Source: a virus
Virus record (IMG/VR): IMGVR_UViG_3300036845_000315
Location: 1 to 26,635 of that record
DNA length: 26,635 nucleotides
Reading direction: 5' to 3' (one strand)
This document shows, one piece after another, positions 9,914-13,343 of the stretch. The notes under the pieces were generated by a model. The model searched no databases and was not told where the DNA came from. It worked only from the letters and a program-made list of their open reading frames with translations. Each line of letters begins with the position of its first letter. The first letter of the stretch is position 1. Both the position numbers and the translations under genes were made by a program.

Positions 9914-10528
9914 TTATTCCTTGTTGTTAGCTATATAGTTCATGACAGCTTCAAACTTAGACGCTTTAAGATCAGCCAGAGAAGTAGCCTTGTTATAACC
10001 GAGAACATTCTTAAATATTAAAGCACCATTCTTGGCTGACTTTATTTGAGTCTGTATAGCTATGACCTGTTCAGGAGATATGCTCTTTTCATCTATGTAG
10101 GTACGCTCAGCCTCACCATCATCATCTTCAGTGGCAATAGCACATAAAGATAGCAACGCATACTTCTTCATGTAGGTATTAGCACCACCCTTAGCTTGAT
10201 TGCCAGGCTTCTCGCTCTCAAGCATTCTCATATCTTCTATGAACTGGCCCGTAGGTGCGTGAATCAATCGTGTATAGAGATATTCAACGCCTTCTGTAGG
10301 TCTTGCAAAATGCCATATAATAATATTGTTCTTTCCTAAAGCGGTCTCAACAGCACGGTATATATCCTCTATCTTGGCATACTTACCAAACTGCTGATTC
10401 TTACCGCTCTTGCCAGTAAGATCAAACTCCTGCTTAGCCAACAAGAATGCAGCAGCCAGGGCTCTTATATCTTCAGACATTGAGTTAGATAGGGAGGGGG
10501 AATTAATCTTGTTTATTTCTTGTTCCAT
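9914..10528 (-). CDS. erf: ERF-family single-strand annealing protein (leftward operon)
   Basis: 204 residues. ERF proteins bind single-stranded DNA ends and promote annealing in phage recombination and genome circularisation (P22 Erf is the type). Visible family pattern: a helical start (ALAAAFLLAKQEF), then QQFGKYAKIEDIYRAVETAL at 45-64, the strand-rich middle, and the signature GGANTYMKKYALLSLCAIATEDDDGE at about 114-139, corresponding to the family's G-x-x-x-T-Y-x-x-x-Y-A-L-x-x-L-x-x-I-x-x-x-D-D-D. The C-terminal 65 residues are helical. It overlaps the upstream coiled-coil gene by 26 bases. A second, different ERF protein is encoded at 12660-13343. Confidence 0.88.
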   Translation of the reverse strand: MEQEINKINSPSLSNSMSEDIRALAAAFLLAKQEFDLTGKSGKNQQFGKYAKIEDIYRAVETALGKNNIIIWHFARPTEGVEYLYTRLIHAPTGQFIEDMRMLESEKPGNQAKGGANTYMKKYALLSLCAIATEDDDGEAERTYIDEKSISPEQVIAIQTQIKSAKNGALIFKNVLGYNKATSLADLKASKFEAVMNYIANNKE

Positions 10529-10817
10529 AGTCTTTCTCTTCTGGTTGTAATCCTAATTTTCTCAGTAAAACATTCTTCTCAGCGTGAAGCGCCCGAACCG
10601 TAAATTCCAGCGTCTCTATACGCTTTATATACTTACTTTCTATACTGGATTCCGTCTGCCACTTCTCAAGAGCCTCGTTACTAAAATGATCAGCGGTCTT
10701 TATAGCCTTTTGAAGCTCTTCCTGCATCTCGTCATTCTTCTTTATCTGCTTCTTAAGCGTGTAAGCAAGGTGCCTATTGCTCGCACTCAGCTCTTTTATT
10801 GTTTTCGAAAACTCCAC
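10503..10817 (-). CDS. Hypothetical coiled-coil protein upstream of ERF
   Basis: 104 residues, rich in Lys, Glu, Gln and Leu, with long uninterrupted helices (KKQIKKNDEMQEELQKAI). It starts at GTG 10817, overlapping the previous stop as TAGTG, with AGGA upstream. It overlaps the ERF start by 26 bases, suggesting coupled translation and perhaps partnership with the annealing protein. No family is recognised. Confidence 0.7.
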   Translation of the reverse strand: MEFSKTIKELSASNRHLAYTLKKQIKKNDEMQEELQKAIKTADHFSNEALEKWQTESSIESKYIKRIETLEFTVRALHAEKNVLLRKLGLQPEEKDYGTRNKQD

Positions 10818-11089
10818 TAGGATCCTTTAGATTTCTTTTCTTCCCTTAAATCGAACCATAACGTTCGCATAGCCTTGTAGGTTTGGTATTCTATATCGGA
10901 TGGATTCCATGATTCATGTGACTCCAGATTCATACATTCATTCATGGATAGAACGCATATAGTTTGCAATAGATAGTCAATTCTTTCTTGATCTGTCCCC
11001 AAAGAATCACAGTGTCCCATCACGAATTTCATCTGCCGCTCAAGATGTGGGTGAATAGGTTTGTCATTAAATTCCTCAAAATTGGTCAT
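10817..11089 (-). CDS. Hypothetical early protein
   Basis: 90 residues, soluble, with His/Cys/Trp scattered (HPHLERQMKFVMGHCDS, ESWNPSDIEYQTYKAM). AAGGAAA is present eight bases upstream of the ATG at 11089. Probably all-helical. No family is recognised. Confidence 0.7.
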   Translation of the reverse strand: MTNFEEFNDKPIHPHLERQMKFVMGHCDSLGTDQERIDYLLQTICVLSMNECMNLESHESWNPSDIEYQTYKAMRTLWFDLREEKKSKGS

Positions 11090-11103
11090 TTAATTTTTCC
11101 TTA

Positions 11104-11409
11104 TTAATCCAGTAACGCCATATAATCTTTAGGCCAATTAGCTCTAAATATATCCCGAGCCATGTGAAACTTATCTAATAGATCTTCACTAGGGTCAAAA
11201 CCATCATTGGCTTGTTGTTGAAGAATAATCTCAAACCCTTTAATAACATCATAAAGAGCTACGGCCTCAGGACATAAAAGTCTTTTATCTTTAGAGAAGG
11301 GATTAGTTACCTCTATAAATCTATCAGGGAATGATAATTGCTTCATAAACTCTAATTGCTTAGGAGTTAGCTCGAGGCTAAACTGAGTCCTTCTTCGGTG
11401 AATATCCAT
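11104..11409 (-). CDS. Hypothetical early protein, second gene of leftward operon
   Basis: 101 residues with a basic N-terminus (MDIHRRRTQF) and a helical body (ALYDVIKGFEIILQQQANDG). An AAGGA lies six bases upstream of the ATG at 11409. It follows the Cro-like regulator by 26 bases in the same operon. No family is recognised. Confidence 0.7.
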   Translation of the reverse strand: MDIHRRRTQFSLELTPKQLEFMKQLSFPDRFIEVTNPFSKDKRLLCPEAVALYDVIKGFEIILQQQANDGFDPSEDLLDKFHMARDIFRANWPKDYMALLD

Positions 11410-11435
11410 AGTCGATCCTTATGGTTGAGTGATTA

Positions 11436-11630
11436 TTATTTTGTAGATTCCCATTTCTCTACATATGATTTTATTTTCCGTGCTGTCTTTAAAGAATAAG
11501 CACAGGGAGCCTTCTCGAGACGAGTCAGTGTGTTATAAGCAATATCCATCTCACGAACCAAATCGATACGCGATATAAGCTTCTGCTTTCTGATCTCCTC
11601 TGCTCTCTTTAAATAATCTATTACATCCAT
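11436..11630 (-). CDS. Small XRE/Cro-like helix-turn-helix regulator
   Basis: 64 residues. Residues about 18-60 follow the XRE pattern: helix 2 (SRIDLVREMDIAYNTLTRLE) with recognition helix at YNTLTRLEK, then a closing helix (LKTARKIKSYVEK). At this length it is a lone DNA-binding domain, like Cro, with no dimerisation or protease-sensitive domain. It is the first gene of the leftward operon and lies next to two divergent promoters with inverted repeats, so it probably represses one or both of them. AGAGGT precedes the ATG at 11630. Confidence 0.75.
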   Translation of the reverse strand: MDVIDYLKRAEEIRKQKLISRIDLVREMDIAYNTLTRLEKAPCAYSLKTARKIKSYVEKWESTK

Positions 11631-11660
11631 AATCTTTACCTCTTATCTTTAAAACAGTAC

Positions 11661-11683
11661 ATCAATACCAACAGTATATTGAT
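11661..11683. promoter_or_regulatory. Candidate operator over the leftward promoter
   Basis: Inverted repeat ATCAATA (11661-11667) and TATTGAT (11677-11683) with a nine-base spacer. It covers the -10 box and start region of the leftward promoter, as a repressor site would. Perfect seven-base arms are seen directly; regulatory use is inference. Confidence 0.5.
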
Positions 11684-11700
11684 AACGAGTTGAATGTAAA
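11673..11700 (-). promoter_or_regulatory. Leftward promoter of the early/packaging operon
   Basis: On the minus strand TTTACA (11700-11695, five of six to consensus) is followed after 16 bases by TATACT (11678-11673, five of six). Transcription would begin near 11666 and reach the Cro-like gene start at 11630. Confidence 0.65.
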
Positions 11701-11702
11701 GC

Positions 11703-11715
11703 ACATTGACAATGT
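11703..11715. promoter_or_regulatory. Candidate operator over the rightward -35 box
   Basis: Thirteen-base perfect dyad ACATTG-A-CAATGT centred at 11709. It contains the rightward TTGACA and lies a few bases from the leftward -35, so one bound dimer could affect both promoters. Confidence 0.45.
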
Positions 11716-11733
11716 CGTTACGTTTATTATAAT
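11706..11733 (+). promoter_or_regulatory. Strong rightward promoter
   Basis: Perfect TTGACA (11706-11711) and perfect TATAAT (11728-11733) separated by 16 bases. The start would be near 11740, about 42 bases before the ATG at 11782. This is the best promoter in the window. Confidence 0.8.
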
Positions 11734-11781
11734 AGAGCTTATAGAGTAGAGATAGACCAATAAGCATAAAGGAAATAGAAA

Positions 11782-12084
11782 ATGGACTTATTACAGAAGC
11801 TTACTAATGAATTGGATGCAGAGATTAACCGCGTATATACAGAATATATAGAGCTCCACAAAGAGCTCGATCAACACCGAGGCAAACCATTAGGGGATAC
11901 CAACCTAGAAGAAGTAAACCGATTACTAAAAGAGATACAGGAAAGGTTTGCAAGCCTCTATCCTGCTTACCATTTCATTGCTGCACGGAACCAATATGTA
12001 AATAATGCGGTCAACTCCTATAATGAGTTTATAGAGACCATAAAGAAAGCAGGAGCTCAACAGCTTGAAGAAGCCAAATCGTAA
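11782..12084 (+). CDS. Hypothetical coiled-coil protein, first gene of rightward operon
   Basis: 100 residues, almost all helical (LTNELDAEINRVYTEYIEL, LEEVNRLLKEIQERF), likely an oligomer. AAAGGAA lies seven to eight bases before the ATG. It is the first gene after the consensus promoter, so probably well expressed and early. No family is recognised. Confidence 0.75.
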   Translation: MDLLQKLTNELDAEINRVYTEYIELHKELDQHRGKPLGDTNLEEVNRLLKEIQERFASLYPAYHFIAARNQYVNNAVNSYNEFIETIKKAGAQQLEEAKS

Positions 12085-12093
12085 GGAACATTG

Positions 12094-12636
12094 ATGACTC
12101 GTGCAGAGCGAATAGTGCAGCTGCTTACAGTTACACCTGAAGTTGAAGCCTTTGGACATATGGTTGATCAAATGGAAGCGAACAGAAGGAAACTTTATCA
12201 AGTTGCAAAACACACCAAACTAACTGAAATGGTTGTTTATTGGTTAGAAACATTCGACAACAAAGAAACACGCTATAGCTACCATCTGATAACCAAGAAA
12301 CTATTCGATGATAAGTGGCTTGAATATGATATGACCGTTGAAGATCTGCAACTAACACGACCCTTGGGAACACAAGATTGGGTTCTGGAGAAGCTAGAAA
12401 AAATTCCTAAAATATCTGACCAAGAAAAGACACATCGGCAGGATATATATATATCATTTACCAAGTATCTACACGCAATGACCGGTGGATGGTTTCATAG
12501 AGCATACAGATGCTCATGCAAATTCAAAGATGAACCTACGTTAGGAGATTATTATAAAAATGAATCAGAACAAAACAACGTGTGGCAAAGCGTCACGAGA
12601 CCAGGTTCAGTGCGTGAAGTTTTGTCACGACCTTAA
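12094..12636 (+). CDS. Hypothetical protein, faint resemblance to tyrosine recombinase core-binding domain
   Basis: 180 residues from the ATG at 12094 (AAGGAA five bases upstream; a TTG at 12091 is too close to the site). Residues about 35-135 have the helical pattern of an integrase N-terminal core-binding domain: VVYWLETFDNKETRYSYHLI, a long helix, then RQDIYISFTKYLHAM. The catalytic Arg...His-x-x-Arg...Tyr half is absent here and in the next reading frames. It may be a stand-alone DNA-binding protein, an eroded integrase, or unrelated. Six conserved-looking aromatic residues near WFHRAYRCSC are also seen. The family link is weak. Confidence 0.6.
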   Translation: MTRAERIVQLLTVTPEVEAFGHMVDQMEANRRKLYQVAKHTKLTEMVVYWLETFDNKETRYSYHLITKKLFDDKWLEYDMTVEDLQLTRPLGTQDWVLEKLEKIPKISDQEKTHRQDIYISFTKYLHAMTGGWFHRAYRCSCKFKDEPTLGDYYKNESEQNNVWQSVTRPGSVREVLSRP

Positions 12637-12659: not shown

Positions 12660-13343
12660 GTGGAAGCATGCAACCTAAAAACATATAGGTCTGAAGAGAT
12701 AGATAAGATAATGGGTGCGCTCTCAAAATCTCAGGGTACTTACAAACCACTGGTGGCGAACCAAGATGCCCCAGGAGGAAAGTTTGCTAACCTTCAGGCA
12801 ATCCTGCTAGCCGTGAGAGAATCGTTGGCCTCAAATGGAATTGGCTTCTTCCAATTCATAGAACTACAAGATGAAGGGTCAGGAGCTGCCCTATTGAAGA
12901 CAACGCTTGGGCATGAATCAGGACAGTATATAACCTCATGTGCTAGGGTAGTTGCAGGTAAGACCGATAGATCGACTGGCAATATCTATGAGATCCACAA
13001 GCGTCTTCATGCGTTGATGCTTTTGGGTATAGCCCCTTCGGATAATGACCCTATTGCCTTTGATGACAATGGAGACGTGTTGGCGGAACAGTATGTTATA
13101 AGTCAGTTGCGCAAACCCGATTCCCCAGAAAGAGTAGAGATAGATAGATCTGAAGTTATCAATAAGACCCAGTACCAGGAGCTTCTGATAGAGCTTGAGG
13201 GTTACAAAGAGATTGCTAAAGACATTATGGATGCCCATGGTATAACTACGTTGGCCGATCTACCGGCTGATGAGTACCATAGAGCTCAAGCTAGAATACG
13301 CCGCATAAAGAAGAATGACGAAGAATACAGAAAGAACCGATAG
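12660..13343 (+). CDS. erf: ERF-family single-strand annealing protein (rightward operon)
   Basis: 227 residues from GTG at 12660 with AAAGGAG six bases upstream. ERF hallmarks: KIMGALSKSQGTYKPL (16-31), GGKFANLQAILLAVRESLASNGIGF (about 39-63), LGHESGQYITSCARVV (83-98) and the signature region TGNIYEIHKRLHALMLLGIAPSDNDP (about 106-131), which corresponds to the family's G-x-x-x-T-Y-x-x-R-x-A-L-x-x-L-L-G-I with acidic residues after it. The C-terminus is charged and helical. It is clearly different from the 204-residue ERF in the leftward operon, so this phage has two annealing proteins under opposing promoters. Confidence 0.82.
   Translation: MEACNLKTYRSEEIDKIMGALSKSQGTYKPLVANQDAPGGKFANLQAILLAVRESLASNGIGFFQFIELQDEGSGAALLKTTLGHESGQYITSCARVVAGKTDRSTGNIYEIHKRLHALMLLGIAPSDNDPIAFDDNGDVLAEQYVISQLRKPDSPERVEIDRSEVINKTQYQELLIELEGYKEIAKDIMDAHGITTLADLPADEYHRAQARIRRIKKNDEEYRKNR

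Follow-up and report, generated by a model that had tools for sequence, protein, structure and literature searches.

The window, i.e. the whole stretch of DNA analysed here, is an entire IMG/VR virus record of 26,635 bases. Two gene sets are read away from each other from a short region located between a leftward gene for a small helix-turn-helix (HTH) protein and a rightward gene, R1. The features of this region and of the two flanking operons are the following:

9914-10528 (-): erf1, coding for an ERF-type annealing protein, left operon
10503-11409 (-): three small genes of low conservation that follow the HTH gene in the left operon
11436-11630 (-): gene for a 64-residue protein of predicted Cro/C1-type HTH fold, first gene of the leftward operon, with a good ribosome site (AAGAGGT) 7 bases before the ATG
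11661-11683: dyad ATCAATA-N9-TATTGAT over the left -10 box; not conserved in relatives
11673-11700 (-): leftward promoter; TTTACA 11700-11695, 16 bases, TATACT 11678-11673; 10/12 consensus matches
11683-11720: pair TAACGA (11683-11688) / TCGTTA (11715-11720), centred on 11701.5; not conserved
11701-11705: gap of 5 bases separating both -35 boxes; centre distance +11
11703-11715: 13-base dyad ACATTG-A-CAATGT over the right -35 box
11706-11733 (+): rightward promoter; TTGACA 11706-11711, 16 bases, TATAAT 11728-11733; 12/12 consensus matches
11737-11765: fourth dyad GCTTAT-N17-ATAAGC, in the right leader; absent from the earlier note
11782-12084 (+): R1, coding for a conserved 100-residue protein, first gene of the rightward operon, with a good ribosome site (AAGGA) 8 bases before the ATG
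12091-12636 (+): gene for a 181-residue protein, right operon, after R1
12660-13343 (+): erf2, coding for a second ERF-type annealing protein, right operon

Both promoters are near-consensus for sigma-70 and point apart, with 16-base spacers that fall within the range of 16 to 18 bases taken for a divergent pair. Transcription would start at about 11740 (+) and 11666 (-). An earlier note, made from the letters of this DNA, had described the two promoters with five bases between their -35 boxes, the 13-base dyad, the dyad with seven-base arms, the TAACGA/TCGTTA pair and the 64-codon leftward ORF, and each of these is found where that note placed it. The rightward promoter is the only site of the window matching the consensus at 12/12 positions, and the pair at 11673-11733 is the only divergent pair of matching quality. 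Block-shuffled DNA of this kind yields such pairs, at a total score of at least 20, about 2.2 times per 100 kb. Promoter-like sites overall are not in excess (41 in 15 kb vs 42.1 in shuffles), and the significance of the pair comes from the comparison with relatives. A search of 11300-12200 against Rfam gave no match.

Relatives were sought with the terminase because the HTH protein alone yielded none: 15 pattern matches were obtained with none confirmed, and a protein search returned seven weak records (best E 0.3). The terminase-based search gave 34 related loci, and more were added via R1, the HTH alignment and the second ERF protein; L031, which has a stop within the matched stretch, was left out of the terminase alignment. 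From these we extracted 19 control regions including that of the window, each sitting between homologues of the HTH gene and of R1. L110 is identical to L006 and was counted once, leaving 18 different sequences.

A divergent sigma-70 pair is present in 17 of these 18 regions (window counted), the miss being L046, which is without a recognisable right promoter and was retained in the count. Among the 17 paired regions the right spacer is of 16 bases in 16 (17 in L136) and the left one in 15 (17 in L023 and L029); for the left promoter of L118 the 16-base spacer is the second-best reading. When ten relative loci were scanned for sites with at least 11/12 matches, the right promoter was listed with the top or tied-top score in eight; L003 has no site that reaches 11/12, and the only site listed for L016 belongs to the same pair, being its HTH-ward promoter. 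A good pair was not seen near the HTH/R1 genes of L156, L168 and L169, nor near R1 of L153, L025 and L177. The two nearest relatives sharing the layout of the window, L006 and L108, allow a comparison position by position: in ungapped columns no change is seen at 22 of the 24 hexamer positions, compared with 29 of the 90 others (Fisher P = 1e-7). It is the promoters that selection has preserved. The HTH gene is moreover the left neighbour in 13/13 aligned members (window counted), and the compact divergent control region beside a Cro/C1-type HTH gene proposed in the earlier note holds in the comparison.

The position of one promoter relative to the other varies among relatives. The -35 boxes are back-to-back with the 5-base gap in the window, L003, L006/L110, L108, L014 and L028, with a gap of three in L136, and with wider gaps in L019, L030, L043 and L029. 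They are interleaved as TTGACA-N5-TGTCAA or near in L034, L011, L007, L118 and L016, and as TTGACATGTCAA in L023. The distances between -35 centres found among relatives are -11, -6, 9, 10, 11, 12, 22, 24, 32 and 33 (+24 is found again in L164, and a weak +9 in L165). Rows that are sisters in the ERF tree are far apart in distance (L034 at -11 and L030 at +24; L016 at -11 and L029 at +32), the forks pairing them having moderate support. Thus a fixed promoter geometry is not conserved, even between tree sisters.

As a post-hoc lead, most of the shifts in spacing are close to an integral number of helical turns (-11, +11, +22, +33). Taking a period of 10.5, the ten distance values give R = 0.61 (P = 0.012 vs uniform distances, 0.013 vs distances of background pairs), with the reservations that the idea came from the same data, that the values 9 and 10 come from weaker pairs, that -6 and 24 fit poorly and that background pairs by themselves give R = 0.22-0.25. 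The promoters could have drifted, and even passed through each other, mostly in steps of one turn that keep the -35 boxes on the same face, one factor sensing both and constraining helical phase but not sequence. We regard this as quite unlikely. If true, a single regulator dimer, shared polymerase contacts or a looped complex would be the candidates for the phase constraint.

The structure model of the HTH protein is a compact all-helical HTH domain of four helices (mean pLDDT 87.7). Against Pfam the protein matches HTH_26 (Cro/C1) at E 0.0068 and 17.1 bits, below the cut-off of 22; in the family, eight of 13 members reach E <= 0.01, and one record exceeds the cut-off. By sequence, the solved structures closest to the family profile are HipB and CylR2 (E 0.002-0.03) and not a phage Cro. 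The best Foldseek matches of the model are CylR2, C.Esp1396I and SinR (E ~0.3), and VIA-align returns the MuB N-terminal domain, HNF-1, Aca11 and others at middling scores (Z 6.6-7.5). The term "Cro-like" used in the earlier note describes the protein fairly, but does not amount to proven membership.

The dyads stand on weaker ground than the promoters and, as a set, exceed chance only just. Four dyads (arms of at least 6, gap of at most 30) lie in the region vs a mean of 1.55 in dinucleotide shuffles, where four or more occur with P = 0.068. A dyad like the 13-base one is present in 13.5% of shuffles, one like the seven-base-arm dyad in 14.7%, and both in 5.2%. When the hexamers are fixed and the exact overlaps with them required, a post-hoc test, the values fall to P = 0.010 and 0.026, and to 0.0002 for both. 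Seven of the 13 bases of the 13-base dyad come free from a -35 box followed by an A (TTG-A-CAA). Eight of the 19 regions, two of which are identical, are richer in dyads than their shuffles at P <= 0.05, so that symmetric sequence may be a general trait of these control regions, with dyad-richness arising partly from interleaved -35 boxes and leader repeats.

The earlier note had suggested comparing the dyads in related phages. None of those of the window keeps its sequence; what recurs, in about half of the relatives, is dyad-richness. In the same register the positions that pair in the window (seven-base-arm dyad, 13-base dyad and TAACGA/TCGTTA pair) still pair at 2/7, 2/6 and 2/6 in L006, at 2/7, 6/6 and 3/6 in L108, and at 0 to 3 positions in L003, L028 and L014. 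Outside the hexamers, 4 of the 31 arm positions (counted per dyad) are invariant in the window, L006 and L108. These results bear on the possibility that the three dyads are phage-specific operators which co-evolve with the HTH protein and for this reason are not conserved in sequence. L108 does have a different perfect palindrome exactly in the place of the 13-base dyad, and the frequency of dyad-rich regions and the improbable overlaps in the window point the same way. But no palindrome was found at that place in the four other regions of the same register (L006, L003, L028, L014), although the HTH proteins of L006 and L108 are 80% identical. A Cro-type dimer moreover needs like sites, whereas the three dyads differ in arm, gap and orientation (7-base arms, gap of 9, ATTGA outward; 6-base arms, gap of 1, ATTG inward; 6-base arms, gap of 26) and are therefore unlike one operator set. 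We find such co-evolving operators unlikely. Being of unlike geometry and not conserved, the three dyads are unlikely to be all bound by one regulator, and they are at most candidate operators.

The same note had read the region as a decision switch and had remarked that no CI-like partner is visible in the window. This absence by itself says little, because the window has 26.6 kb vs 38-40 kb in related records, i.e. it is shorter by about a third than the longest relatives. The relatives make the absence stronger, with a tyrosine integrase in 0/14 related records, a serine recombinase in 0/16, an S24-type repressor in 0/16 and an HTH_3 protein over the cut-off in 0/14. HTH_26 is matched in seven of 16 records, by the known HTH gene in six and by other ORFs in one. 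The two other weak HTH_3 matches examined are in ORFs which look to us like HNH homing endonucleases, a reading of our own and not a family match. No close relatives were detected in bacterial genome contigs with the terminase, the terminase-alignment search of bacterial genomes returning 57 distant terminases (30-39% identity, mostly Pseudomonas), and the DNA has no similarity to 50,697 phage records. In a true lysis-lysogeny switch the HTH protein would play the part of Cro, with an integrase and a CI-like partner that are either encoded outside the window or too divergent to be recognised. The partial window leaves room for this, and PMC7498355 attributes to lambdoid phages a similar arrangement, with back-to-back promoters that share operators in a common control region. 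Yet without an integrase, a serine recombinase or an S24 repressor in 14-16 related records, and without a close prophage in bacterial contigs, a decision switch is unsupported and we judge it very unlikely; as the related records are not shown to be complete, the absence of these genes is short of proof.

The left operon bears on another possible role for the regulator. In the 34 loci that were searched, two of the three small genes at 10503-11409 have no relative and one has a single relative, and several related loci carry erf1 all but next to the HTH gene; on these grounds 10503-11409 is likely a site of accessory-gene exchange. The HTH protein might be an autorepressor of the Aca kind, limiting only the early burst of the left promoter, with the promoter-proximal small genes as variable anti-defence or accessory genes. 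Its model aligns with Aca11 (Z 6.9, rmsd 2.4, 59 aligned) and with the N-terminal domain of AcrIIA15 (Z 6.8, rmsd 2.2, 58 aligned). However, small HTH domains in general often give Z values below 8, unrelated domains reach scores just as high, and PADLOC gave no match for the small left genes, whose anti-defence role is putative. We hold this restricted role to be unlikely.

Several observations concern the operons themselves. Each contains a different ERF-type single-strand annealing protein, and both proteins are kept in many relatives. R1 ranks with the better conserved genes of this region (12 long matches, 54-84% identity) and has no believable family match; comparison with solved structures proposed repeat and coiled-coil proteins, which we did not believe, no single stretch being significant. 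In nine of 12 relatives an extra gene of about 90-97 residues (longer in L029) lies between the right promoter and R1, e.g. at 5540-5818 in L023, 1948-2220 in L003 and 1141-1434 in L034; it is absent from the window, L006 and L108. In many relatives an inverted repeat, CGTGACANNNTGTCACG(ACC), at times in tandem, and its sister form GTCGACANNNTGTCGAC recur upstream of right-operon genes, often directly before the ribosome site (L034 1428-1471, L011 327-370, L014 5511-5525, L108 3514-3555, L122 3578-3592, L025 3986-4000 and others). The window has one degenerate copy at 12613-12632, before erf2 (two mismatches, none expected). Such a repeat might act in DNA as an operator, or in RNA as a hairpin.

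Comparison with known systems places the region nearest to the lambdoid layout. At lambda OR, divergent sigma-70 promoters are likewise combined with a small HTH protein, Cro, encoded first in one operon. The region resembles the lambdoid immunity region in its back-to-back divergent sigma-70 promoters and in the small HTH protein that opens one operon. It differs in that a CI-like partner and an integrase were not found in the relatives searched, in having no set of like operator sites and in carrying an ERF-type gene in each operon. With the P2/186 promoter pair and its Cox/Apl regulators it has in common a compact region, opposed promoters and a small regulator. In P2-like phages, however, the promoters are face-to-face (PMC7498355, which also gives a spacing of 10-11 bases for the Apl sites of P2/186) and 40-60 bases apart, whereas here they are back-to-back or interleaved, and the regulator is a predicted Cro/C1-type HTH protein. 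Bacterial bidirectional promoters also initiate divergently from one short stretch, but according to PMC10268837 they use one near-symmetric -10 element for both directions, with starts usually 18 bases apart on opposite strands; in the present region the two directions have separate -35 and -10 boxes. The region is closer to the lambdoid arrangement, but without detected lysogeny genes. In the literature searched we found no description of this region.

We favour, as moderately probable, the reading of an early promoter hub with the HTH protein as its putative brake, in a phage group that apparently has no integrase. Counting against this reading are the shifting promoter geometry, the missing right promoter of L046, the other loci in which no good pair was seen, and the sub-cut-off Pfam match of the HTH protein, whose family is closest to HipB and CylR2. 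The promoter pair would probably be the main early start point of this uncharacterised group. On entry, host sigma-70 RNA polymerase would use the two strong divergent promoters and open both operons, at once or in competition, as the conserved promoters suggest. The leftward promoter would drive the long left operon beginning with the HTH gene, and the rightward one the short right operon beginning with R1 and including the second ERF gene. With -35 boxes five bases apart two polymerases would hardly fit together, and the promoters therefore probably compete. As the first product of the left promoter, the HTH protein would most likely bind the region and lower one or both promoters as infection proceeds. 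Cro turns promoters down in this manner during lytic growth; for the protein of the window we infer binding and repression from its predicted fold and its position. Taken as a whole, the observation of the earlier note is partly confirmed and its interpretation partly supported.

These results correct a reading that is tempting: when AT-rich promoter DNA beside a Cro-like gene contains dyads, this does not amount to a decision switch. While the promoter sequence stays constant, the promoter geometry changes fast and hints at helical phasing, which is directly testable. For an uncharacterised phage group the region provides a well-supported early promoter locus, which may be used for transcription mapping and for an operator search.
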